Of a stretch of 64,000 nt of DNA, positions 3,383-60,525 are shown in pieces. The notes below the pieces were generated by a model. It worked only from the letters and a program-made list of their open reading frames with translations. It did no database searches and was not told the DNA's origin. Source of the DNA: Motilibacter aurantiacus (GTDB lineage: Bacteria; Actinomycetota; Actinomycetes; Motilibacterales; Motilibacteraceae); contig NZ_JAANNO010000002.1 in the NCBI RefSeq assembly GCF_011250645.1, positions 90,179-154,178 of the forward strand. The letters are read 5' to 3'. The first letter of the stretch is position 1, and each line of letters starts with the position of its first letter. Both the position numbers and the translations under genes were made by a program.

Positions 3383-4750
3383 CTACGACGCGGGCAGCGA
3401 GTTGTGCTTGAACAACGCCTTCCGGGCCGCCTTCGCGACCGACTTGTCCTCGAGGAGGACCCCCAGCCCCTCGAGGACGGGCGCCGTCTCCGGGTGACGG
3501 ACGCGCCACAGCCGCTCGATGACCTCCTCGACGGGCAGCGGCGCGCAGAGCGCGTCGAGCAGCCCGCGCAGCCCGTCGAACGGCTCCATCAACATCGCGG
3601 CGTGCAGCCGCTCGACGAGCTCGCCCTCCTCCCCCGCGGCCCAGGGGCGCGGCGGGTCGAGCCGCTCGCGGAGCCGCCACACCTGCACGAAGGGGCGCAG
3701 CTCGGGCTGCCCGGCGAGGGTGCCGACGGCCTCGACCGTGTCCGCGCTCGAGGCGTCGAGGACGCCGAGCACGAGGGACGCCGCCACCTGCCTCGCCACC
3801 GGGTCCATCACGGTGACGGCCTCGACGAGCTGGGCGGCGGCGTCCTCGCCGTTGCCCTCGACCCAGACCCGGAGCTCGTGGCGGGCGAAGTCGAAGGGAA
3901 CGTCGAGCAGTGTGGCGAGCACGTCCGGCGCGCCGGCCGCGACGAGCGCGGCGGCGGCGCCGGCGTCCACCCGGTCGATGCCCGACGCACCGAGCGGGCT
4001 GAGGGAGACCCGGCCGTGCACGGGCAGCCGCTCCCCGACGCGGTCGACGTCCCGGTCGATCTGCTGCGACTGCTGCAGCGTCTGCCGGGCGTCCTCGTCC
4101 GGCTGCAGGGCCCCCAGCTCGACCAGGCGCCGGACGCCGCGGACGACGTCCTGGCGCGCCGACTCCTTCTCGTCCGGCAGGGTGGCCGGGTCCATGGCGT
4201 CGAGGTCCTCCGCGGAGTACAGCTCCTCCCAGGCCCGCTCGGCGGCCTCGTCCAGGTCGACGGGGCCGTGCGCGGCCAGGTCGAGCACGAGGGCGGCCAG
4301 CGAGGCGTCGGCGACCTTCGCGTACGCCCGGACGCCCTCGCTGTTGAGGCGGTAGTGGTGACCGGTCGGGCCGACGGTGAACAGCATGGCGACGAGCAGG
4401 TCGAGCCAGGCCACCTTCGGTGACCGATACGCCGGCGCGGCCCGGGCCAGCGAGCCGTCCACGACCTCGATTAGCCCGGCCGCGAGCGCGAGCCGGTACG
4501 TGAGGTCGACCTCGTCGAGCTCGTAGCTCTCCTTCGCCTCGACGCTCCCGTCCTCGTACGTCTCCTCGAGCGGCTCGCCCGTCTCCAGGAGCTCGTTGAG
4601 GGCGCGCGCGTCGTCCAGGCTCAGGCCGCCGTCCGCGGTCAGCGGCCGGCCGCCCCCGACGTAGTCGAGGAAGGCCGTGACCCGCCGCAGCCAGAGCGAG
4701 GACAGGGCTGCCGCCTCGAGCGGATCGTCGACGGGAGGAGTGCTGGTCAT
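3383..4750 (-). CDS. Conserved hypothetical protein, helical, cytosolic
   Basis: A 455-residue protein whose function I do not recognise. It has no signal peptide or membrane segment and is rich in Asp, Glu, Leu and Ala. The N-terminus (WLRRVTAFLDYVGGGRPLTADGGLSLDDARAL) resembles the helical part found in actinobacterial proteins annotated as related to plasmid pRiA4b ORF-3, but this is a weak resemblance. The segment around residues 110-135 (RLNSEGVRAYAK) could be a winged-helix fragment. ATG 4750 is the first good start. It is transcribed divergently from the HTH/Clp-N pair and shares their 95-bp intergenic region, which contains two palindromic operators, so its expression may be linked to them. 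Confidence 0.75.
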   Translation of the reverse strand: MTSTPPVDDPLEAAALSSLWLRRVTAFLDYVGGGRPLTADGGLSLDDARALNELLETGEPLEETYEDGSVEAKESYELDEVDLTYRLALAAGLIEVVDGSLARAAPAYRSPKVAWLDLLVAMLFTVGPTGHHYRLNSEGVRAYAKVADASLAALVLDLAAHGPVDLDEAAERAWEELYSAEDLDAMDPATLPDEKESARQDVVRGVRRLVELGALQPDEDARQTLQQSQQIDRDVDRVGERLPVHGRVSLSPLGASGIDRVDAGAAAALVAAGAPDVLATLLDVPFDFARHELRVWVEGNGEDAAAQLVEAVTVMDPVARQVAASLVLGVLDASSADTVEAVGTLAGQPELRPFVQVWRLRERLDPPRPWAAGEEGELVERLHAAMLMEPFDGLRGLLDALCAPLPVEEVIERLWRVRHPETAPVLEGLGVLLEDKSVAKAARKALFKHNSLPAS

Positions 4751-4797
4751 GGCGGTGACGGTAGCCGCCGCCGCGGGAAGCCCGCCCCGGGGCCGCT

Positions 4798-4845
4798 ATC
4801 AACCGGGGTTGACAGCTTGGGACGCATCAACCTAGGTTGATAGCC
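4798..4845 (+). promoter_or_regulatory. Promoter with two palindromic operators over -35 and -10
   Basis: A consensus -35 TTGACA (4809-4814) is followed after 18 bp by TAGGTT (4833-4838), a good actinobacterial -10. The ATG at 4846 comes 7 bases later, so the transcript is probably leaderless. Palindrome one, TCAACCGGGGTTGA (4799-4812), overlaps the -35. Palindrome two, ATCAACCTAGGTTGAT (4826-4841), is a perfect 16-mer covering the -10. Their centres are 28 bp apart. The layout fits a dimeric repressor blocking RNA polymerase at both elements; the adjacent HTH protein is the obvious candidate. Confidence 0.75.
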
Positions 4846-5109
4846 ATGGCTGAGGCGATCCAGGTCCCACCGGTCGAGGACACCGAAGCGGCCCTCGCCG
4901 CCGTGGTCGCGCTGCGCCGGCTGGCCAACCAGCTCGAGTCCGCCGCCGTGGCCCACGCCATCGGCGCGGGCTGGACCTGGGCCGAGGTGGGCCAGGCGCT
5001 CGGCATCAGCCCACAGGCCGCCCACAAGAAGCTCGCCCCACTGCTGCCGGAGCCCTCACCCCGCTCCCGCACCCGATCCCGCACCCGATCCCGCAAGGAG
5101 AAGCAATGA
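4846..5109 (+). CDS. Small helix-turn-helix protein
   Basis: An 87-residue protein with a helix-turn-helix near residues 42-62 (GWTWAEVGQALGISPQAAHKK), of the type found next to Clp-N domain proteins in actinobacteria. The tail is basic and repetitive (RSRTRSRTRSRKEKQ) and could contact DNA non-specifically. ATG 4846 is preferred over an upstream TTG because it lies just after the -10 box. The stop overlaps the next start by 4 bases (ATGA), so the two are translationally coupled. It probably binds the promoter palindromes just upstream and controls its own operon; this is inference from position. Confidence 0.8.
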   Translation: MAEAIQVPPVEDTEAALAAVVALRRLANQLESAAVAHAIGAGWTWAEVGQALGISPQAAHKKLAPLLPEPSPRSRTRSRTRSRKEKQ

Positions 5110-5645: not shown

Positions 5646-5681
5646 CCGGAGAGCATGCTCCACCTGGAGCACGTTCTCCGG
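5646..5681. promoter_or_regulatory. Probable TetR operator (36-bp dyad) upstream of tetR
   Basis: A dyad of two half-blocks: outer arms CCGGAGA (5646-5652) and TCTCCGG (5675-5681), inner arms GCTCC (5657-5661) and GGAGC (5666-5670). It ends 12 bases before the GTG of the TetR gene. The same CGGAGAG/CTCTCCG half-sites recur as a perfect palindrome upstream of the next gene (6385-6402), so TetR probably represses both. Confidence 0.65.
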
Positions 5682-6384: not shown

Positions 6385-6402
6385 GCGGAGAGCCCTCTCC
6401 GC
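6385..6402. promoter_or_regulatory. Probable second TetR operator upstream of NmrA-like gene
   Basis: GCGGAGAGCCCTCTCCGC is a palindrome with 8-bp arms and a 2-bp centre, ending 16 bases before the ATG at 6419. It shares CGGAGAG half-sites with the dyad upstream of the TetR gene. Confidence 0.65.
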
Positions 6403-7403: not shown

Positions 7404-8054
7404 ATGACGAGGTTCCTGCATACCCGGAGCGCGGCCGTCGGGGCCGCCGTCGCCCTGGTCGCGGCCGGCGCAGTGGGCGGTGGGCTGGCCACGGCCGCCA
7501 CCAAGACGCCCCGCGTCACGACCGTGTGCGTGAACGCGAAGACCCAGGAGCTCACCAAGCCCAGGAGCGGGCGGTGCGCGCGCGGCACGACGCTGAACGC
7601 CGTCGGCGCCGCCGCCGTCCCGGGGCCGCGCGGGGCGACCGGGCCGGCAGGCCCGCCGGGGGCTCCGGGCGCGGCAGGGGCCACCGGGGCGCCCGGTGCG
7701 GTCGGGCCTGCAGGACCGGCGGGGCCGCCTGGGCCACGCGGGGCGGCCGACGCGTACTTCGTGAACTGGCAGCCGGGCGTCGGGGTGGTCGGGAAGTCCG
7801 ACGGCGTGAGCCTCGTGGGGCAGTCCAGCTCCACCTTCGCCGGCTTCACGACGGCGGACGTCTTCCTCACCTTCCCGGTGCGTGACGTCCGGGCGTGCGG
7901 TGCGGCCGTGTCCGTGCAGGGACTCGAGGCCACGTACGCCCGACTCCCCGTGGCGCAGACCGCGTACACGAGCACGCCCAACCAGCTGCAGGTCGCCACC
8001 ACCTGGGACGGGGGCGGCGCGCCGGGGTTCTCGCTGACCGTCACCTGCCCCTGA
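7404..8054 (+). CDS. Secreted protein with collagen-like Gly-X-Y segment
   Basis: A 216-residue exported protein: signal peptide (about 1-32, ending ATAA), a short globular part with two Cys, then about 14 consecutive Gly-X-Y triplets (about 72-113), many with Pro or Ala. A C-terminal domain of about 100 residues with two further Cys follows (ACGAAVSVQ ... TVTCP). The repeat should form a collagen-like triple helix and trimerise the terminal domain. No LPXTG or C-terminal membrane anchor is seen, so it is probably released or weakly wall-bound. Function is unknown. It converges on a serine hydrolase gene across a hairpin. Confidence 0.85.
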   Translation: MTRFLHTRSAAVGAAVALVAAGAVGGGLATAATKTPRVTTVCVNAKTQELTKPRSGRCARGTTLNAVGAAAVPGPRGATGPAGPPGAPGAAGATGAPGAVGPAGPAGPPGPRGAADAYFVNWQPGVGVVGKSDGVSLVGQSSSTFAGFTTADVFLTFPVRDVRACGAAVSVQGLEATYARLPVAQTAYTSTPNQLQVATTWDGGGAPGFSLTVTCP

Positions 8055-8164: not shown

Positions 8165-9328
8165 CTACGCCTCGCACACCGCCTTGTCGACGGCCGTGTT
8201 GAGGTGGCTCAGCGACTCGATCTTCACGGGCAGGGCGGTGACGGCGAGGACCGCGCCGCGCCCGCCCTCGGTCACGAGGCCACGGCTCTCGTACCCGACG
8301 AAGTCGCCGCCGTGGCCCCACGCGTCTGCGCCGCAGGAGAGCTTCTTCTTCGCGATGCCGAGGCCGTACGACCAGCCGCTCTCCGGCTCGAACCCGGGCG
8401 CCTTGACCGCCTTCAGCATCTCCTTCTGCTGGGCGGGCTCGAGCAGCTTGCCGTCGATCACCGCCCGGTAGAACGTCAGGACGTCGCTCGGGGTGGCGAT
8501 CAGCGCGCCGGCCGCCCACCCGCCGGACGGCTCGAACGCGGTCATGTCGCGGTACGGCGCGTCGGCGGAGTCCCGGTGGTAGCCCTTGGGGTGCGGCTGC
8601 TTGAGAGTGAGCGTGCCGAGGCCGGGCCAGTAGGTCTCCTTGAGGCCCAGCGGCTTGATAATCCGGTGGGTGATCTGCTCGCCGATCGGGCGGCCGGTGA
8701 CCTTCTCGACGACGAGGCCGGCGAGGACGTAGTTGGTGTTGCTGTACTCCCACTTCGTGCCGGGCGTGAAGTGCGACGTGTGGGCGAGCGCGATGTCGAC
8801 GAGTGAGCGCGGGTCCCGGTAGGTGCGCTGCGCCTGGTCGAACGGCAGGAAGATGTCCTCGTCGTAGTCCGGCAGACCCGACGTCTGTTGCAGGAGCTGG
8901 CGGACCGTGATCTTGCGCCCGTCGTTGCCGTTCTTCCGCACCAGCCCGGGCAGGTAGGTGTCGACCTTCTCGTCGAGCGCGATCTTCCCCTCGCCGACGA
9001 GCTGGAGGACCACCACCGCGGTGTAGGTCTTGGTGTTGCTGGCGATGCGGATGTAGCCGTCGGCCGGGACCTTCGCGCCGGTCTTCAGGTCGCCGACGCC
9101 CGCGGTGTAATTCCGGATCTTGCCTTCGCGATTGCTGACCGCGCCGAGCGCGCCGGGGGCGCCGTCCTCGGTAACGAGGGCGTTCATGCGCTGCTGCGTC
9201 CCGTCCACCCGCGCCGTGCCCGCGGCATCGGCCGGAACCGTGCCGACGAGCGCGGTGGTGGCGACGGCCGCGAGGGCGACGCCGCTCAGCGTGCGGCGGC
9301 GGGAGGTGTGGCCTGAGGTGAGGCGCAT
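8165..9328 (-). CDS. Secreted serine hydrolase, beta-lactamase/class C PBP family
   Basis: A 387-residue exported enzyme of the serine beta-lactamase-like family (D-alanyl-D-alanine carboxypeptidase, esterase or class C type). It has a twin-Arg-containing signal peptide (RRR near 10-12, cleavage near ADAA). The three active-site motifs are present: S-N-T-K at 97-100 (nucleophile Ser, general base Lys), Y-S-N at 195-197, and H-G-G in WGHGGDFVGY near 345. These class C-like proteins act on D-amino peptides or esters outside the cell; the substrate is not predictable. It is divergent from the Pro-rich membrane protein gene, and a 37-bp palindrome lies between the two. Confidence 0.93.
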   Translation of the reverse strand: MRLTSGHTSRRRTLSGVALAAVATTALVGTVPADAAGTARVDGTQQRMNALVTEDGAPGALGAVSNREGKIRNYTAGVGDLKTGAKVPADGYIRIASNTKTYTAVVVLQLVGEGKIALDEKVDTYLPGLVRKNGNDGRKITVRQLLQQTSGLPDYDEDIFLPFDQAQRTYRDPRSLVDIALAHTSHFTPGTKWEYSNTNYVLAGLVVEKVTGRPIGEQITHRIIKPLGLKETYWPGLGTLTLKQPHPKGYHRDSADAPYRDMTAFEPSGGWAAGALIATPSDVLTFYRAVIDGKLLEPAQQKEMLKAVKAPGFEPESGWSYGLGIAKKKLSCGADAWGHGGDFVGYESRGLVTEGGRGAVLAVTALPVKIESLSHLNTAVDKAVCEA

Positions 9329-9448
9329 GGTCGCTCCTTCGTCGGGCTTCGTGCTGACGAGGTCAACACTCGTCCGTCGGAGCGGCGGTCACGATCCCCT
9401 GGGCTGGCGTCTCGTCGGTAACGCCTGCACTACCGGCGGGCGTCCTCA

Positions 9449-9485
9449 GCTATCCGGATACGCCCGTCGGGCGTATCCGGATAGC
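9449..9485. promoter_or_regulatory. 37-bp near-perfect palindrome in a divergent promoter region
   Basis: Two 18-base arms (9449-9466 and 9468-9485) are exact reverse complements with one T between them. Each arm contains its own 10-bp palindrome TATCCGGATA (9451-9460 and 9474-9483), centres 23 bp apart. It lies 121 bp upstream of the serine hydrolase start and 128 bp upstream of the Pro-rich protein start, between divergent genes, so a terminator role is unlikely and a double operator or cruciform site is more plausible. Confidence 0.6.
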
Positions 9486-9612
9486 TTGCCTCAAGAGGCG
9501 GTGACCGTTCGGAGCGGCGATGCACACTCGGGCATCGTTTCCGCGTTCTCGACGCACGATCAAGGACTACTCGGTACGGTCGTCCTGCTTGCACAATCGT
9601 TCGGGGGAACAT

Positions 9613-10488
9613 ATGTCGAACAACATGCCGCCATCCGGTGGCGAAGGTCCGCAGTACCCACCACCAGGGCAGTCCGGCGTTCCGCACTATCCGCCGCCTC
9701 CTGGCGGCTACCCAGCCTCCGGATACCCGCCGCCGGGTGGTCAGTACCAGGGTCCGCCGCCTGGGTTCCAAGGCGGCTATCCGCCGGTGGTACCGCCTGA
9801 GCCGACGAGGAAGAAGCCGCTCTTCAAGCGGGTCTGGGTTTGGGTAGCAGGCGTGTTCCTGGTTCTGCTCGTGACAGGCATTGCCACCAGCGGCGGGTCC
9901 GGCGGCAGTTCGAACAACCAGGCCGGGAACGCGCCAGCTGCAGCGAAGAAGCCTGCCGCTCCGCCCGCAGCGAGCGCGAGCGCGCCGGCTGTAGAGCCCA
10001 CGGAGGCGGCGCCGGCTACAACTCAAGCTGCGCCTGCAACGACCGAGGCAGCCCCGCCGCCTCCACCGCCACCGGTCGAGATCACCTACCCGGGCAAGAA
10101 GGACGGTGACACTGCGGTGAAGGCCGGCGAGTCGGTCAAGCTCTCGGGCTGGACGGCAACGACAACCCCCCTGAAGCAGGTCAGCGTCGACTTCCTCGGC
10201 GAACACCTGTGCACCAACGTTACGTTGGTCAACCGGGACGACGACCAGCAGGAATGGAACACCTTGTCCTGGAAGATGCAGACGCCGAACGGTGCAGTGC
10301 TGGACATGGCGTTCACGGCTGACGACAAGGACCTCGACGTCGCGGGCGGCGGGCTGGCGCCCGGCGGGAAGATCACTGGTCGCGTCTGTTTCGAGGACAA
10401 GGACGCCGGAAAGGGCGACTATGTCGTCTTCTGGCAGCCTGACATCTTCTCCAGTGAAGACCGCGGTGCCTGGGTGAACAAGCGCTGA
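9613..10488 (+). CDS. Membrane-anchored protein with Pro/Gly/Tyr-rich N-terminus
   Basis: A 291-residue protein of unknown function. Residues 1-75 form a low-complexity cytoplasmic leader rich in Pro, Gly, Tyr and Gln (YPPPPGGYPASGYPPPGG), followed by a basic patch (TRKKPLFKR). A single membrane helix (about 76-98; VWVWVAGVFLVLLV) comes next, then an Ala/Pro/Thr-rich linker, and an extracellular beta-rich domain (about 160-291) with two Cys. This architecture is common in actinobacterial proteins with a C-terminal DUF4352-like or immunoglobulin-like domain; I cannot assign one with confidence. ATG 9613 follows GGGGGA at good spacing. Confidence 0.8.
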   Translation: MSNNMPPSGGEGPQYPPPGQSGVPHYPPPPGGYPASGYPPPGGQYQGPPPGFQGGYPPVVPPEPTRKKPLFKRVWVWVAGVFLVLLVTGIATSGGSGGSSNNQAGNAPAAAKKPAAPPAASASAPAVEPTEAAPATTQAAPATTEAAPPPPPPPVEITYPGKKDGDTAVKAGESVKLSGWTATTTPLKQVSVDFLGEHLCTNVTLVNRDDDQQEWNTLSWKMQTPNGAVLDMAFTADDKDLDVAGGGLAPGGKITGRVCFEDKDAGKGDYVVFWQPDIFSSEDRGAWVNKR

Positions 10489-10503
10489 CCACCCACTGCT
10501 CGC

Positions 10504-10544
10504 GCCAGCGCCGCCGCGCCACATGGGGCCGCGGCGGCGCTGGC
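10504..10544. terminator. Terminator between convergent genes
   Basis: A perfect 14-bp stem (GCCAGCGCCGCCGC / GCGGCGGCGCTGGC) with a 13-base loop, followed by CTTACT. It separates the membrane protein gene from the convergent response regulator. Confidence 0.75.
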
Positions 10545-10583
10545 CTTACTGGCTGCCTGTCCGCCCGGGCTGCTCCCGCTGAG

Positions 10584-11237
10584 TCATCGCCTCACGTCCT
10601 CTAGGTACCGCAGGACGGCGACCACCCGCCGGTCGGTCTGCTCGGTCGGCGGCAGGTCGAGCTTGGAGAAGATGCTGCGGATGTGCTTGTGCACCGCGCC
10701 GTCGGTGACGACGAGCCGCTCGGCGATAGCGGCGTTGCCGAGCCCCTGCGCCATGAGGTCGAGCACCTCGCGCTCGCGCGACGTCAACCGCTCCAGGCCC
10801 GCGTCCGCACGCCCGCGCGTCATGAGCTGCGCGACGACGTCGGGGTCGATCGACGTGCCGCCTGCGGCGACCCGGTGCAACGCCTCGAGGAACGACTCCA
10901 CGCGCCCGACGCGCTCCTTGAGCAGGTAGCCGAGCCCCGCGGCCCCGCTGGCCAGCAGGTCGGTCGCGAAGGCCTGCTCGACGTACGCCGACAGCACCAG
11001 CACCGCCAGCTCCGGCTGCCGACGGCGGGCCTCGACGGCGGCGACGATGCCCTCGTCGGTATGGGTCGGCGGCATACGTACGTCGACGATGGCGACGTCG
11101 GGCCTGTGCTCGTCGACGGCGGCGAGGAACGGCTCGGGACCGTCCGTGGCGGAGACGACGTCGAGGCCCTCGGCCTTGAGCAGCAGCGCGACGCCCTCGC
11201 GGAGCAGGGCGTCGTCCTCGGCGATCACGATCCGCAC
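10584..11237 (-). CDS. NarL/LuxR-type response regulator
   Basis: A 217-residue regulator: receiver domain (1-120) with acidic pocket E7-D8-D9, phospho-acceptor D52 (IVDVRMPP) and conserved Lys in GYLLKERV; C-terminal LuxR HTH (about 150-210; LTSREREVLDLMAQGLGNAAIAERLVV). GTG 11237 is chosen: it aligns exactly with the canonical receiver start and overlaps the kinase stop by 13 bases. It receives phosphate from the kinase encoded just upstream. Target genes are not evident nearby. Confidence 0.92.
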   Translation of the reverse strand: MRIVIAEDDALLREGVALLLKAEGLDVVSATDGPEPFLAAVDEHRPDVAIVDVRMPPTHTDEGIVAAVEARRRQPELAVLVLSAYVEQAFATDLLASGAAGLGYLLKERVGRVESFLEALHRVAAGGTSIDPDVVAQLMTRGRADAGLERLTSREREVLDLMAQGLGNAAIAERLVVTDGAVHKHIRSIFSKLDLPPTEQTDRRVVAVLRYLEDVRR

Positions 11238-12628
11238 GGCAGCTGTACCTCCAGAGTTGTGGGCCCGCCGACCGGGCTCGTCATCGTCAGCGTGCCGTCG
11301 AGCGCCTCGACGCGTCGCCGGATGCCGAGCAGGCCGCTCCCCCGTGACTCGTCCGCCCCGCCCTTGCCGTCGTCGGTGACCCGGAGGTGCAGGTCGTCGC
11401 CTCTTCGCTGCACCTCCACGTCGATCGACGTCGCACCGCTGTGCCGCGAGCCGTTGGTCAGCGCTTCGGCGACGGCGAAGTACGCGGTGGCCTCCACCGC
11501 GGCTGCGCATCGGCCGGGCACGTCCACCCGCAGGTCGCACCTGATCGGGCTGGTCGCTGCGAGCCCGCGCAGCGCACCCGTGAGGCCGCGATCAGCGAGC
11601 ACCGGCGGGAGGATGCTGCGGACGACGCTGCGCAGCTCGGCAAGCGCCTCCTCGGCCGCCAGTTGCGCGCGCTCGAGGATCTCGGGCGCTGCCGCAGGAT
11701 TGCGCTCGGCGGCGCGGCGTGCGGCACCGAGCAGGACGGTGACCGCGACAAGGCGGTTCTGCGTGCCGTCGTGGAGCGCCCGCTCGATCCGGCGCAGCTC
11801 GGTCGCGTGTGCGTCGAGCGCCGCGGCCCGGGTCGCGGACAGCTGAGCCACCCTCAGCGTCAGGTCGCTGCTCGGGTCGATCGGCAGCAGCCGCAGCCCC
11901 CGGCGTACGAGCCAGCGGGCCATCCTCGGGGTCAGCCAAGCGCCGAGGGCGATCCAGCCGACGCCGAGCAGGAGGGCGGCGAACGCGCTCCCCCAGCTGC
12001 CGACCACCCACAGGCTCAGCGTCGGCGTCACCTCGCCCTTCGGGAAGACACGCCACCAGAGCGGGACGCTGATGTCGCGCAGGCCGGAGATCGGCAGCAG
12101 CAGGCCGAGGGCCGCGAGCAGCAGGCCGCCGGTGGCGTGGCCGACGAGCCAGCGCAGCTCACGGCGTACGTCCGGGTCGTGGCGCGCCTCGCGGAGGTCG
12201 CGGGGCGGGTCGCCCGGGCCGAGGAAGGACCTGCCGCTACGACGCAGCCTCACACGCTCCCGGTCCGCGACAGCGTGGACGGTGCGTAACGCGCGCGGGG
12301 CCAGCAGCAGGCCGACGCCGACGAGCGACAGGGCCAGGACGACGCCCAGCCAGCAGAACACGGCGAAGGCGAGCAGGGCTGTGACGAAAGCACCGGCCAC
12401 CTCCTCCAGCGAGGGAAGCACGTCGCCCGCGGCGCGAGGCAGCCGGCCGCGCATGCCCTGCTGGGCTTCGTCCTGCGGCGCCTGGCGCGGCACGTCGAGC
12501 TCCGTCCGTCGCGGCGGGCATGGCCTCTGAAGCGTAGGCAGCTTCACGACGGTTGTCGGTAGTGCCTGCTGCACCGTCCGCTCCGGTGTCCCGTCCGGGA
12601 GGCTGGGCGGCTGGCGAGCTGCCTGCAT
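11225..12628 (-). CDS. Membrane sensor histidine kinase, HisKA_3 (NarX/DesK-like)
   Basis: A 467-residue kinase partnered with the following response regulator. It has a long polar N-terminus (1-75), hydrophobic segments at about 78-110, 162-182 and 205-232, then the dimerisation/phosphoacceptor motif with H286 in RRIERALHDGTQNRL, and a HATPase domain (about 375-465; N-box ALTNGSRHSG, G-boxes DDGKGG and GSGLLGIRRR). Hydrophobic segments rather than a large external domain suggest sensing within or near the membrane, as in the PspC-like or DesK-type sensors. ATG 12628 follows GGGGAAGG; Met 59 is a possible later start. Confidence 0.9.
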   Translation of the reverse strand: MQAARQPPSLPDGTPERTVQQALPTTVVKLPTLQRPCPPRRTELDVPRQAPQDEAQQGMRGRLPRAAGDVLPSLEEVAGAFVTALLAFAVFCWLGVVLALSLVGVGLLLAPRALRTVHAVADRERVRLRRSGRSFLGPGDPPRDLREARHDPDVRRELRWLVGHATGGLLLAALGLLLPISGLRDISVPLWWRVFPKGEVTPTLSLWVVGSWGSAFAALLLGVGWIALGAWLTPRMARWLVRRGLRLLPIDPSSDLTLRVAQLSATRAAALDAHATELRRIERALHDGTQNRLVAVTVLLGAARRAAERNPAAAPEILERAQLAAEEALAELRSVVRSILPPVLADRGLTGALRGLAATSPIRCDLRVDVPGRCAAAVEATAYFAVAEALTNGSRHSGATSIDVEVQRRGDDLHLRVTDDGKGGADESRGSGLLGIRRRVEALDGTLTMTSPVGGPTTLEVQLPCGS

Positions 12629-26059: not shown

Positions 26060-26252
26060 CCGTCCCGGACGCTACCGCTCCCGGGGCCGTCGGCGGAAGA
26101 TCCGCGGTGCACCCATGGTCGATTCTCCTGCACGCAGAGCCGAGACAGCCCGAATTCGACCCTCCTAGCGTGACCCGCATCCGGCCGGAAAGCGCTTCAC
26201 CGTCGCAGCGCACGAGCCGGGCCGATCCGTGTCAGCACGATCAGGAGGGCTC

Positions 26253-27080
26253 ATGCGCCTGCAACGCCGGTCATTGCGCCGCGGCGGAATGCTGTTCGCC
26301 GCCGCGGCACTGCTCGCCACGCTCAACTCCCCCGTCGCCTCCGAGGCGGCCGCGAAGGACGCGCCGAAGCCGACGGTCGTGCTCGTGCACGGCGCCTTCG
26401 CCGACTCCTCCGGCTGGAACGAGGTGATCGAGCGCCTCCAGAGGCGCGGCTACAGCGCCCTCGCGCCCGCGAACCCGCTGCGCAGCCTCACCGGGGACGC
26501 CGCGTACCTCCGGTCCGTCCTCGCCCAGATCGAGGGCCCGGTCGTCCTCGTCGGACACTCCTACGGCGGCGCGGTCGTCACGAACGCCGCAGCCGGGAAC
26601 CCGAATGTCAAATCCCTGGTCTACGTTGCGGCCTTCGCGCTCGACCAGGGCGAGAACGTCCAGACCGCCAGCACGCTGGGCGGCGGCGACACGCACCTGC
26701 TCGAGCACATCGACCTGCGCGGCTGGCCCGGGCCGGCGCCGGGGCCGGGCAGCCTGGAGGGCTACATCAAGCCGGCCGACTTCCACGAGGTCTTCGCCCA
26801 GGACCTCAGCCCGCGTGAGACGGCCGTCATGGCCGCGGCGCAGCGGCCCGCCGCCCTGGCGACCTTCGACGAGCCGTCGGGCGTGCCGGCGTGGCGGACG
26901 ATCCCGTCCTGGTACATGGTCGCCAAGCAGGACCACGTCATCCCGCCGGAGGCCGAGCGGGTGATGGCCGCCCGCGCCGGCGCCACGACGGTCGAGCTGG
27001 ACAGCTCGCACGTGCCGATGATGAGCCACCCCGCCGAGGTCGTGTCGCTCATCCGCCGGGCGGCGGGCGAGCTGGGCTGA
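26253..27080 (+). CDS. Secreted alpha/beta hydrolase
   Basis: A 275-residue exported hydrolase. The signal peptide is about 1-34 (LFAAAALLATLNSPVASEAAA). The oxyanion region is LVHGAFADSSGW, the nucleophile is S103 in GHSYGG, and the acid and His come from DHVIPPEA and SSHVPMMSHP. The short-cap form resembles the RutD/MhpC-like and salicylate-esterase-like group; the substrate is unknown. ATG 26253 is chosen for the AGGAGGG just upstream over an earlier in-frame GTG. It may be controlled by the divergent AraC protein. Confidence 0.9.
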   Translation: MRLQRRSLRRGGMLFAAAALLATLNSPVASEAAAKDAPKPTVVLVHGAFADSSGWNEVIERLQRRGYSALAPANPLRSLTGDAAYLRSVLAQIEGPVVLVGHSYGGAVVTNAAAGNPNVKSLVYVAAFALDQGENVQTASTLGGGDTHLLEHIDLRGWPGPAPGPGSLEGYIKPADFHEVFAQDLSPRETAVMAAAQRPAALATFDEPSGVPAWRTIPSWYMVAKQDHVIPPEAERVMAARAGATTVELDSSHVPMMSHPAEVVSLIRRAAGELG

Positions 27081-27083
27081 GCC

Positions 27084-27129
27084 GCATCCGGATGCCAGGG
27101 CCGTGGTCGCGGCCCTGGCACCCGGATGC
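27084..27129. terminator. Terminator between hydrolase and giant RTX gene
   Basis: A long inverted repeat, GCATCCGGATGCCAGGGCC paired with GGCCCTGGCACCCGGATGC, one interior mismatch, 8-base loop, in the 57-bp gap between two convergent genes. Confidence 0.8.
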
Positions 27130-27137
27130 CGTACGCC

Positions 27138-30100
27138 CTAGCGGTCGTCGTTGCGGATCGTGCCCACCGCCGACCTGGCCCCCAGGACGGCGCCCGCCGG
27201 CCTCGACAGCGTCACCCGCAGCGTCTCCGCCTTCTCCCTGGACCGGTCGCCGATCACGAGCACCGTGACGGTGGCCGACGTGCGGCCCTTGCGGAACGTC
27301 ACCGTCCCCGACGCCTTGACGAAGTCCTTGCCCGCGGTGGCCGTCACGCCGGCCGCCGCCCAGCGCACCGTCACCGGTCCCTTGGCCGGCGGCGACAGCG
27401 AGAGCGTGAACGTCAGCTTCGCCTTCTTCCCGGGCTTGCCCTCGGCGACCGACGCGGCCCTCACCGACACCTTCGGCGTCGCCGGCTGCGGCACCGCGGT
27501 CTGCGACGGCGCCGGCTGCGGCGCGGGCGGGGCGGGCGGGGCGGGCGGCGCCGGCTGCGGGGCGGCCGTCCCGGTCGGCGCCGGCTGCAGCGGGCCCGGC
27601 TGCGTCGGCTGCGGCACGGGCACCGTCGGGGTGGGCTGGGGCGGCGGGGGCGGCGGCACCACGCCGCCGAGCACCGAGCCCTCGACGTCGCCGCGGACGT
27701 TGTCGCCCTCGCCGGCCGCCCCGTCGTTGGGCAGCTCGTCGAGCGTGACAGCGGCCGATCCGACCACCCGTCCGGAGTAGTCGGCGGTGTCCGCACCGGG
27801 GCCACCCGTCAGGTCGTCGGCGCCGTTGGCCGAAGCGCCTTGCACGAACCGGTCGTCACCCGAACCCGACTTCTCCACGTCGTCGCCCGGGCCGCCGTCG
27901 AGCAGGTCGGCCCCCGCACCGCCGGTGAGCGCGTCGTCGCCGTCCCCGCCCAGCAGGGTCATGGCTCCGGGAGCCGTGGCCAGCACGAGCAGCGTGTCCC
28001 GGCCCGGGCCGCCCTCGAGCGTCGCCGCCGCCTGCCGCGGGTGGTCGATGCTGAGCCGGTCGTCGCCGGCCCCCCCCACGACCCGGTCGACCGAGTCCTG
28101 GACCCAGTCGCGCTGCCCGGACAGCGGGTCGGTCGCGTGCCGGTCGGACTCGTCGCCGTCGTTGGCGTTGCCGTCGAAGCCCACCACCACCGACGTGGTG
28201 CGAGCGGCGTACGTGACGGTGTCGACGCCGGTGTCCCCGACGAAGATGTCAGCGCCGGTACCGCCGTCGAGCGTGTCGTCGCCCGTCCCGCCGTCCATCG
28301 CGTCGTTGCCGGCACCGCCGCTCAGCACGTCGTTGCCGGCCCAGCCGGACATCGTGTCCCGGCCGTCGCCGCCGCGCAGGGTGTCGTCGCCGTCGAGCCC
28401 GCCGATCGTGTCCTCGCCCTCGCCGCCGTCGACGAGGTCGTTGCCCGGGCCGCCGTGCAGGTTGTCGCCACCGGCCCCGCCGTCGACGACGTCGTTGCCG
28501 CCGCCGGCCGAGTTGACCGAGTCCGCGCCCTCACCCGTGCTGATGGTGTCCACCGCGTCGCCGCCGACCACGGTGTCGACGCCGGGCCCGGTGGTGATGA
28601 CGTTCGCGCCGTCGGCCGCCGCGTTCTGCTCGCCGTAGCCGTACACCGTGTCCTCGCCCTCGAACGTCTCGATTGTGTCCGAGCCGAGCCCGCCGTAGAC
28701 CCAGTCGCCCTGAGCGCTGCCCAGGACGGTGTCGTCGCCCCGGCCGGCGTCCACCCAGCTGCCGCCGTCCTGCACCTCGATGCGGTCGTTGCCGTCGCGG
28801 CCGTGGACGGTGTCGCGCCCGTCGCCGCCGAGGACCACGTCCTGCTGCGGGGAGCCCCAGATCTCGTCGTCACCCGAGCCGCCCTCGGTCCGGTCGGCGC
28901 CGCCCTGGGCCACGAGGTAGTCCCTGCCCTCCCCCCCGCGCAGGACGTCGGCCGCGCCGTCGTCGAGGTGGTCGACGTAGTCCTTGTCGTAGACGTTGTC
29001 GTTGCCCGGGCCGGCGTCCAGGACGTCCGCCCCGCCCATGCCGAACACGTGGTCCCAGCCGTCGTGCGTCTCGATGACGTCGGCGCCGCTCCAGCCCCAG
29101 ACGTCGTCGCGCGCCCTGCCCGTGACGAGGTGCTCGAGGTCCGTGTGCACGTTGTCCAGCTGGGCCTGGCCGCCCGCGCTCCAGTCGTAGGGGTAGCTCC
29201 CGTCGCCGATCACGTCGTCCTTGGTGATCTTCAGCGACTCGGTGCGGTCGGCGTAGTCGGCGGTGTCGTAGCCGGCCCCGCCGCGCAGGTCGTCCGCCCC
29301 CGCGCCGCCGTCGACCGTGTCGTCGCCGGCCTCGCCGTCCAGCGTGTCCTGCCCCGGGTCGCCGTGCAGCGTGTCGGGGCCGTCGCCGCCGGCCAGCACG
29401 TCCCGCCCGGGGCCGCCCTCCACCAGGTCCTTGCCGCCGTTGCCGCGCAGCGTCTCGTCGGCCCTGCTGCCGCGCAGCACGTCGTCGTACGCCCCGCCGA
29501 GCACGGTATCGGCGTCGAAGACGTTGTCCGGCTGACCGCCCACGACGCCGTCGTTGGCCAGCCGGTCGAGCCGTACGACGACCGGCCCGGGCGCCGCGGA
29601 GTAGTCCGCGGTGTCCACCCCCTCCTGGCCGAAGAACGAGTCCCAGCCGGGCCCGTCCACCCACCGGTCGTCCCCCGGGCCACCGGCGACCTGGTTGCCG
29701 CCACCGCCTCCGGCGAGGGTGTCGTCGCCGCTGCCGCCCATCAGCAGGTCGGTCGCGTCGCCGCCGGTGAGGGTGTCGTCCCCCGGCCCGCCGTCGATCC
29801 GGACCGTCCGGTCGTGCGGGGCGACGATCGTGTCGTTCCCCGCGCTGCCGATGACGGTCTCCACCGCGTCGGCCGTGTCCTTCTCGCCGGCCGAGCCGCT
29901 CGGGCCGGGCAGCGTCACGGTCACGGCGGCGGTGTGGTCGCTGTAGTCGGTGGTGTCCTGGTCGCCGCCGCCCTGCACGTCGTCGTCGCCGAGGCCGCCG
30001 CGCAGGGTGTCGTTGCCCGCACCGCCCTCGAGCGTGTCGTTGCCGCCGCCCGCGTCGAAGGCGTCGTCGCCGGGGCCGCCCTCGAGCACGTCCGGGTACG

Positions 30101-60408: not shown

Positions 60409-60431
60409 CCTTCCCCCACCGCGATCACGCA

Positions 60432-60483
60432 GATGTGGCGAGTTCTCCACAGGCCCACCGGCCTGTGGAGAGCTCGCCACATC
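60432..60483. terminator. Long bidirectional terminator
   Basis: Two 24-base arms (60432-60455 and 60460-60483) pair with one G-T mismatch around a 4-base loop, between the convergent response regulator and DUF2795 genes. Confidence 0.8.
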
Positions 60484-60525
60484 GGCACGTGTCAGCGACG
60501 CGCTGGGGGTGCGCGTGGTGTGCGG

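Follow-up and report, generated by a model that had tools for sequence, protein, structure and literature searches.

The intergenic region between two divergent genes in the 64,000-nucleotide stretch of Motilibacter aurantiacus DNA analysed here (the window) carries a perfect 39-bp palindrome. We read it as a U-poor terminator-type hairpin, serving as a transcriptional barrier or left as a relic, and give this reading a probability of about 0.5; this estimate and the weight given to every other reading below are matters of judgement and were not computed. The palindrome shares the form of the hairpins found behind genes in this genome, but not their position. By itself it is ordinary and of little significance. 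It matters as an example of how gene turnover may strand a gene-end hairpin as a conspicuous palindrome between divergent genes in a GC-rich actinobacterium, and as a warning against taking such hairpins for operators. The features of the region are as follows.

8165 to 9328, minus strand: serine hydrolase gene (PF00144 beta-lactamase family), reading away from the palindrome.
9352 to 9368, no strand: TGCTGACGAGGTCAACA dyad in the serine hydrolase leader, retained by M. deserti and family member G003.
9441 to 10595, no strand: segment without M. deserti counterpart, containing the palindrome and the DUF4352 gene.
9448 to 9486, no strand: 39-bp perfect palindrome, 19-bp arms and 1-nt centre, forming an RNA hairpin from either strand.
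9451 to 9460, no strand: inner decamer TATCCGGATA of the left arm.
9474 to 9483, no strand: inner decamer TATCCGGATA of the right arm, its centre 23 bp from that of the left decamer.
9488 to 9499, no strand: adjoining small inverted repeat GCCTC-AA-GAGGC, read from the sequence and the fold.
9613 to 10488, plus strand: Pro-rich membrane protein gene with DUF4352 (PF11611), GC3 0.77 (serine hydrolase gene 0.96).
10504 to 10544, no strand: 15-bp inverted repeat with an 11-nt spacer, located 15 nt downstream of the DUF4352 stop codon; at this opposite end of the segment it represents an ordinary terminator-like hairpin.
10584 to 11240, minus strand: response regulator gene with LuxR/GerE-type HTH, conserved in M. 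deserti and convergent with the DUF4352 gene.

The initial annotation had described a palindrome at 9449-9485 with 18-base arms. Its existence was confirmed, while its size has to be corrected by one base on each side: the two 19-nt arms (AGCTATCCGGATACGCCCG and CGGGCGTATCCGGATAGCT) are 100% complementary across the 1-nt centre. Its central position was also correctly described: the serine hydrolase gene starts 119 bp away (9328) and the DUF4352 gene (ATG at 9613) 126 bp away. About 1e-4 arm pairs of at least 19 bp (spacer 0-10) are expected by composition per 64 kb, and the palindrome is far beyond chance. RNA from either strand forms an 18-bp stem closed by a 3-nt loop (fold z of −5.5 for the plus strand and −7.4 for the minus strand; for each strand 0 of 200 shuffles were equally stable). 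In the minus-strand fold the GCCTC-AA-GAGGC repeat forms a second short hairpin beside the palindrome. The arms had been described as two nested palindromes, and TATCCGGATA is indeed found in both, but the two are not independent. A random 19-nt arm contains a symmetrical decamer with p = 0.025 at this GC content and, because the arms are complementary, symmetry of the decamer in one arm necessarily makes the decamer of the other symmetrical. The second decamer is thus implied by the first, the pair amounts to a single coincidence, and the nested decamers seem more special than is warranted. The nine pairs outside the decamers are perfect as well, for which composition gives 2e-5.

The hairpin class to which we assign the palindrome was defined by a survey of perfect hairpins (arms of at least 13 bp, spacer 0-10) in 864 kb, made of the window and 800 kb of other stretches and covering about 19% of the genome. 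It contains 41 such hairpins against 1.8 expected from composition, and 36 of them lie outside called genes. Thirty of these 36 are found 4-30 nt behind a called stop, a proportion to be compared with 8% for random placement in the same gaps. Genes were called with a home-made heuristic based on GC by codon position, not with Prodigal, and it missed at least four genes: a pilin-like gene, a dehydrogenase-like gene, and the DUF4352 and response-regulator genes of the window, the latter two being added by hand. The 30 fitting cases are as called, and the six exceptions were checked by hand. Two of them also follow a gene end, one lying 13 nt behind the missed pilin-like gene and the other 24 nt behind a tRNA-Ala. 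A third is inside a short-chain dehydrogenase-like frame (our own reading) and so is coding. The fourth (L095, 9681), an ambiguous case, is between genes called divergent, 50 nt past the end of an ORF that matches no Pfam family, the fifth (L110) overlaps the predicted start of a MmyB-like regulator gene by 8 bp, and the sixth is the palindrome itself. In total, 32 of the 35 non-coding perfect hairpins follow a gene end at 4-30 nt (30 called stops, the pilin-like gene and the tRNA-Ala). Two gene-end stems were compared with the related species Motilibacter deserti; one (L102) is largely conserved and the other (L106) altered.

In form the palindrome is at home in this class, whose arms reach 20 bp and which has 1-nt spacers in 4 of its 36 members, the palindrome included; a 10-bp nested palindrome occurs in one of the 35 others (L125). 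Among the 8 bases that follow the stem on either side, all 36 have at most four T and the palindrome at most two; its arm GC of 0.63 is the second lowest of the set. With so few T after the stem, the long gene-end hairpins of this genome would be missed by terminator scans based on a T-run. The terminator scan made no call at the palindrome. A similar picture emerges from a Term-seq study of Streptomyces (PMC12207403): the intrinsic terminators there are reported to have the longest and most stable hairpins and the fewest U, 4-6.6% alone of the mapped 3′ ends agree with the canonical hairpin definition, Rho or processing are proposed as alternatives, and U-rich terminators stop transcription more strongly in S. 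avermitilis. The U-poor gene-end hairpins of the present genome fit this published pattern. The palindrome resembles the U-poor terminators described there in its long, very stable stem, small loop and few U; it differs from them in having no gene end, in lying between divergent genes and in its lower GC.

A gene end near the palindrome was sought on both sides, the initial annotation having pointed to an unannotated gene ending just before it as the arrangement of an ordinary terminator. Neither flank contains the end of an ORF of at least 30 aa within 60 nt, the tRNA search of the 64-kb window was negative, and no Rfam family matches 8900-10600 at E ≤ 1. Two long mechanical ORFs cross the palindrome (9120-9800, plus strand; 9430-10524, minus strand), and both have a strongly non-coding codon composition (scores of −52 and −98, the DUF4352 gene itself scoring −17). 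The palindrome thus gives a stable RNA hairpin, with neither a U-run behind the stem nor a gene-end position, and so we do not count it among the canonical intrinsic terminators. What we claim is that it belongs in kind with the gene-end hairpins and would work likewise. The low arm GC, the lack of a U-run on either side and the lack of a gene end nearby count against the terminator-type reading, as does the position of the other clear divergent hairpin of the survey (L110), which adjoins a regulator gene. In its favour are a form matching a class that is found almost always behind genes, the perfection of the whole arms, a requirement of hairpin formation but not of two separate dimer sites, and the arrangement in a related species.

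This arrangement was seen in the same-genus comparison genome, taken as M. deserti E257. Homology covers the serine hydrolase gene and its promoter region to 9440, about 8 bp short of the palindrome (slightly beyond in a local alignment, by a few bases), and is found again from 10596, where the response-regulator gene ends. The palindrome is absent beside the conserved M. deserti serine hydrolase gene, which is the outcome of the comparison among relatives that had been suggested, and it lies at the edge of the differing segment. M. deserti has instead an interval of ~3.9 kb with a long gene, a 1241-aa open frame directed towards the serine hydrolase gene with an OmpA-like end (by our own reading, with no database match). 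Fifteen nt behind its stop there is a hairpin (−32.7 kcal/mol) with a 14-pair stem, including one G-U pair; the start of homology is 36-70 nt away. A gene-end hairpin thus occupies nearly the same place in M. deserti, and the palindrome has the shape of gene-end hairpins, so the initial annotation was too quick to exclude a terminator because of the distance to the two stops. The palindrome has no obvious sequence likeness to the M. deserti hairpin. A remnant of the M. deserti gene within the window segment was looked for by tblastn and rejected (best E 1.7). Descent of the palindrome from that terminator is consequently not supported, and the largely conserved L102 stem likewise counts against the terminator-type reading.

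Other relatives suggest how the region may have changed. The sequence upstream of the serine hydrolase gene was read as a co-directional frame terminated with a hairpin in G002 (55% identity of the serine hydrolase) and as the end of a co-directional frame in G003 (66% identity). Co-directional upstream frames in M. deserti, G002 and G003 indicate that the divergent arrangement is probably derived. Among the best 80 of 358 serine hydrolase relatives, seven have a perfect hairpin (arms of at least 12) within ~500 nt upstream, of other sequence. A DNA search with 9300-9640 in 60 genomes, this one included, gave M. deserti as the sole good outside match and matches of ~30 bases in two more genomes. 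The DUF4352 segment looks foreign in its composition (GC3 0.77). The DUF4352 gene has no match in M. deserti and three other family members; a search of 97 other genomes gave two distant matches (33-34% identity), and 11 plasmids of Rhodococcus, Dietzia and Actinomyces carry relatives.

We propose the following scheme for the action and the history of the terminator-type hairpin. The replaced state would have been that of M. deserti, with a gene directed towards the serine hydrolase gene and a hairpin at its end. The palindrome may have arrived with, or outlived, the replacement that installed the foreign-looking DUF4352 gene, and a hairpin type usual behind genes in this genome would so have become stranded between divergent genes. 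Transcripts entering from either direction would fold into the 18-bp hairpin and terminate there, or their 3′ ends would be fixed by it or trimmed back to it. The palindrome would then be a bidirectional barrier that stops transcription from one unit running backwards into the other. Alternatively, it may have been an idle relic since the segment was replaced.

The position at the segment edge also allows the palindrome to be seen as a recombination scar or recognition site, a cruciform-prone sequence at the junction of the segment replacement. The nearness of the homology boundary, the foreign look of the segment and the plasmid location of the DUF4352 relatives agree with this. We hold it to be unlikely, as the palindrome is found in a single place, the segment ends share one exact 9-mer (inverted) and nothing longer, and the DUF4352 gene is the sole gene recognised in the segment. 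Furthermore, 9440-9612 has no match in phage records and one match alone, of 30 bases (E 0.5), in plasmids. A phage origin was rejected, there being no phage match to 9440-9612 or to the DUF4352 gene and no viral contig with the decamers in their exact inner flanks. The very stable plus-strand hairpin could also belong to the 5′ leader RNA of the DUF4352 transcript, as an attenuator or stabiliser, if the promoter were to the left of the palindrome. Set against this are the lack of a promoter-like site on either side (in a scan for the sigma-70 consensus, which is weak for this organism), the lack of an Rfam family, and the 126 bp to the start codon, which would leave room for a promoter behind the palindrome. 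A leader structure is, in our judgement, slightly less probable still than a scar.

The main rival to the terminator-type hairpin is a double operator. Double operators are known between divergent genes, for instance those of a TetR- or XRE-type regulator and its target, and the palindrome resembles them in its divergent, central position, in its exact 10-bp symmetrical cores and in their spacing, which is close to two helical turns. Two regulator dimers would bind the TATCCGGATA decamers, 23 bp apart and on the same face, and control the presumed promoter of the DUF4352 gene and perhaps that of the serine hydrolase gene. The setting of the other clear divergent hairpin (L110), beside a MmyB-like HTH regulator and an aldo/keto reductase, is a classic one for an operator. 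The palindrome differs from known double operators in the lack of an adjacent regulator and of a second site, and in a complementarity that goes beyond the cores: the perfect pairing outside the decamers is unneeded for two dimers. The asymmetric 13-mer CTATCCGGATACG has no further match in its own genome at 0-1 mismatch, so that the usual autoregulatory or regulon site is missing. At two mismatches it has 24 matches, against 11 for a control string; in four other family members there are three one-mismatch sites, none of them paired and none in M. deserti.

The candidates for a cognate regulator fare no better. No regulator gene is seen in the segment. The adjoining response regulator is shared, in conserved form, with M. 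deserti, whose genome contains no copy of the 13-mer at 0-1 mismatch and no site beside its conserved serine hydrolase gene. The nearby TetR gene (5693) was considered as well and its operator rejected as an explanation, as its own promoter carries other repeats (GGAGA..TCTCC, by eye). The serine hydrolase gene has a conserved leader dyad of its own: TGTTGAC-n3-GTCAGCA (9352-9368) is common to three species, the rest of the G003 leader being different. This predicted site is probably the operator of the serine hydrolase gene and, judged from this conservation, a better candidate than the palindrome for its regulation. Four of the 11 plasmid matches to the DUF4352 gene were examined over 700 bp upstream and have nothing similar: perfect inverted repeats (arms of at least 7 bp) are lacking in three, and the fourth has one that starts 699 bp away. 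The titles and abstract openings listed for the TATCCGGATA string contain no bacterial operator with such a core. The initial suggestion of a double operator hence keeps its support from the single copy and the divergent, central position, but is weakened by the missing second site, the absence from M. deserti and the different repeats of the TetR gene. We rank it second to the hairpin reading, as a tentative possibility. A more specific version, in which the whole 39-bp dyad came with the plasmid-type DUF4352 gene and is read by a dimer of dimers of a host regulator without other genomic site, is more doubtful.

The initial annotation also entertained a mobile-element or REP-like site, and advised counting the element. 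The TATCCGGATA decamer occurs in these two places alone in the 4.59-Mb genome, and the element is single. Two decamers 4-30 bp apart are found in 1 of 393 genomes of the class, which is this genome, and thus in none of the 392 others; viral contigs have no decamers with the exact inner flanks. REP and REPIN elements are likewise nested palindromes in intergenic regions, but they are repeated, whereas the palindrome is a single copy. Beyond its shape nothing speaks for membership in a dispersed REP/REPIN-like family or for the end of a mobile element; copy number refutes such a family at the sensitivity tested, and we regard this origin as extremely improbable. A looser viral search, for two TATCCGGATA 4-30 bp apart, returned 10 contigs whose flanks are unlike those of the window. 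A viral kinship through the shared decamer was set aside as coincidence, given these differing flanks and because one viral contig, described below, has a longer-palindrome family of its own.

Other inverted repeats were seen in the window. At 4795-4844, two TCAACC-n2-GGTTGA palindromes (4799-4812 and 4827-4840) jointly form a larger inverted repeat that overlaps the start of ORF 4837-5109, whose product has no Pfam match but looks to us like a small HTH protein; a counterpart of this stretch exists near the M. deserti locus. The repeat is a better double-operator candidate than the 39-bp palindrome. GGAGA..TCTCC repeats were found by eye at 5646-5681, before the SbtR-like TetR gene (5693), and at 6385-6402, before a NmrA-like gene (6404), and are possible candidate sites of the SbtR-like TetR repressor. 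The longest imperfect inverted repeats of the window are at 27071-27142 and 60429-60486; the former begins at the end of the called gene 26229-27080 and contains CATCCGGATG, two mismatches from the decamer.

Two observations concern other stretches. The L110 hairpin is a 15-bp perfect inverted repeat (7627-7663) between the divergent genes of the MmyB-like HTH regulator and the aldo/keto reductase, and is likely to be the predicted operator of that regulator. A 14,116-base viral stretch of 66% GC (L147, from IMGVR_UViG_3300037070_003657) has eight exact copies of TATCCGGATA, all flanked as TTTATCCGGATAAA, at 1875, 5536, 7853, 10513, 12005, 13012, 13669 and 13694, and a one-mismatch copy at 3484. 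At least one copy, at 10513, lies ~20 nt upstream of the start of a minus-strand ORF (10109-10492), and the element is repeated and possibly regulatory in that virus.
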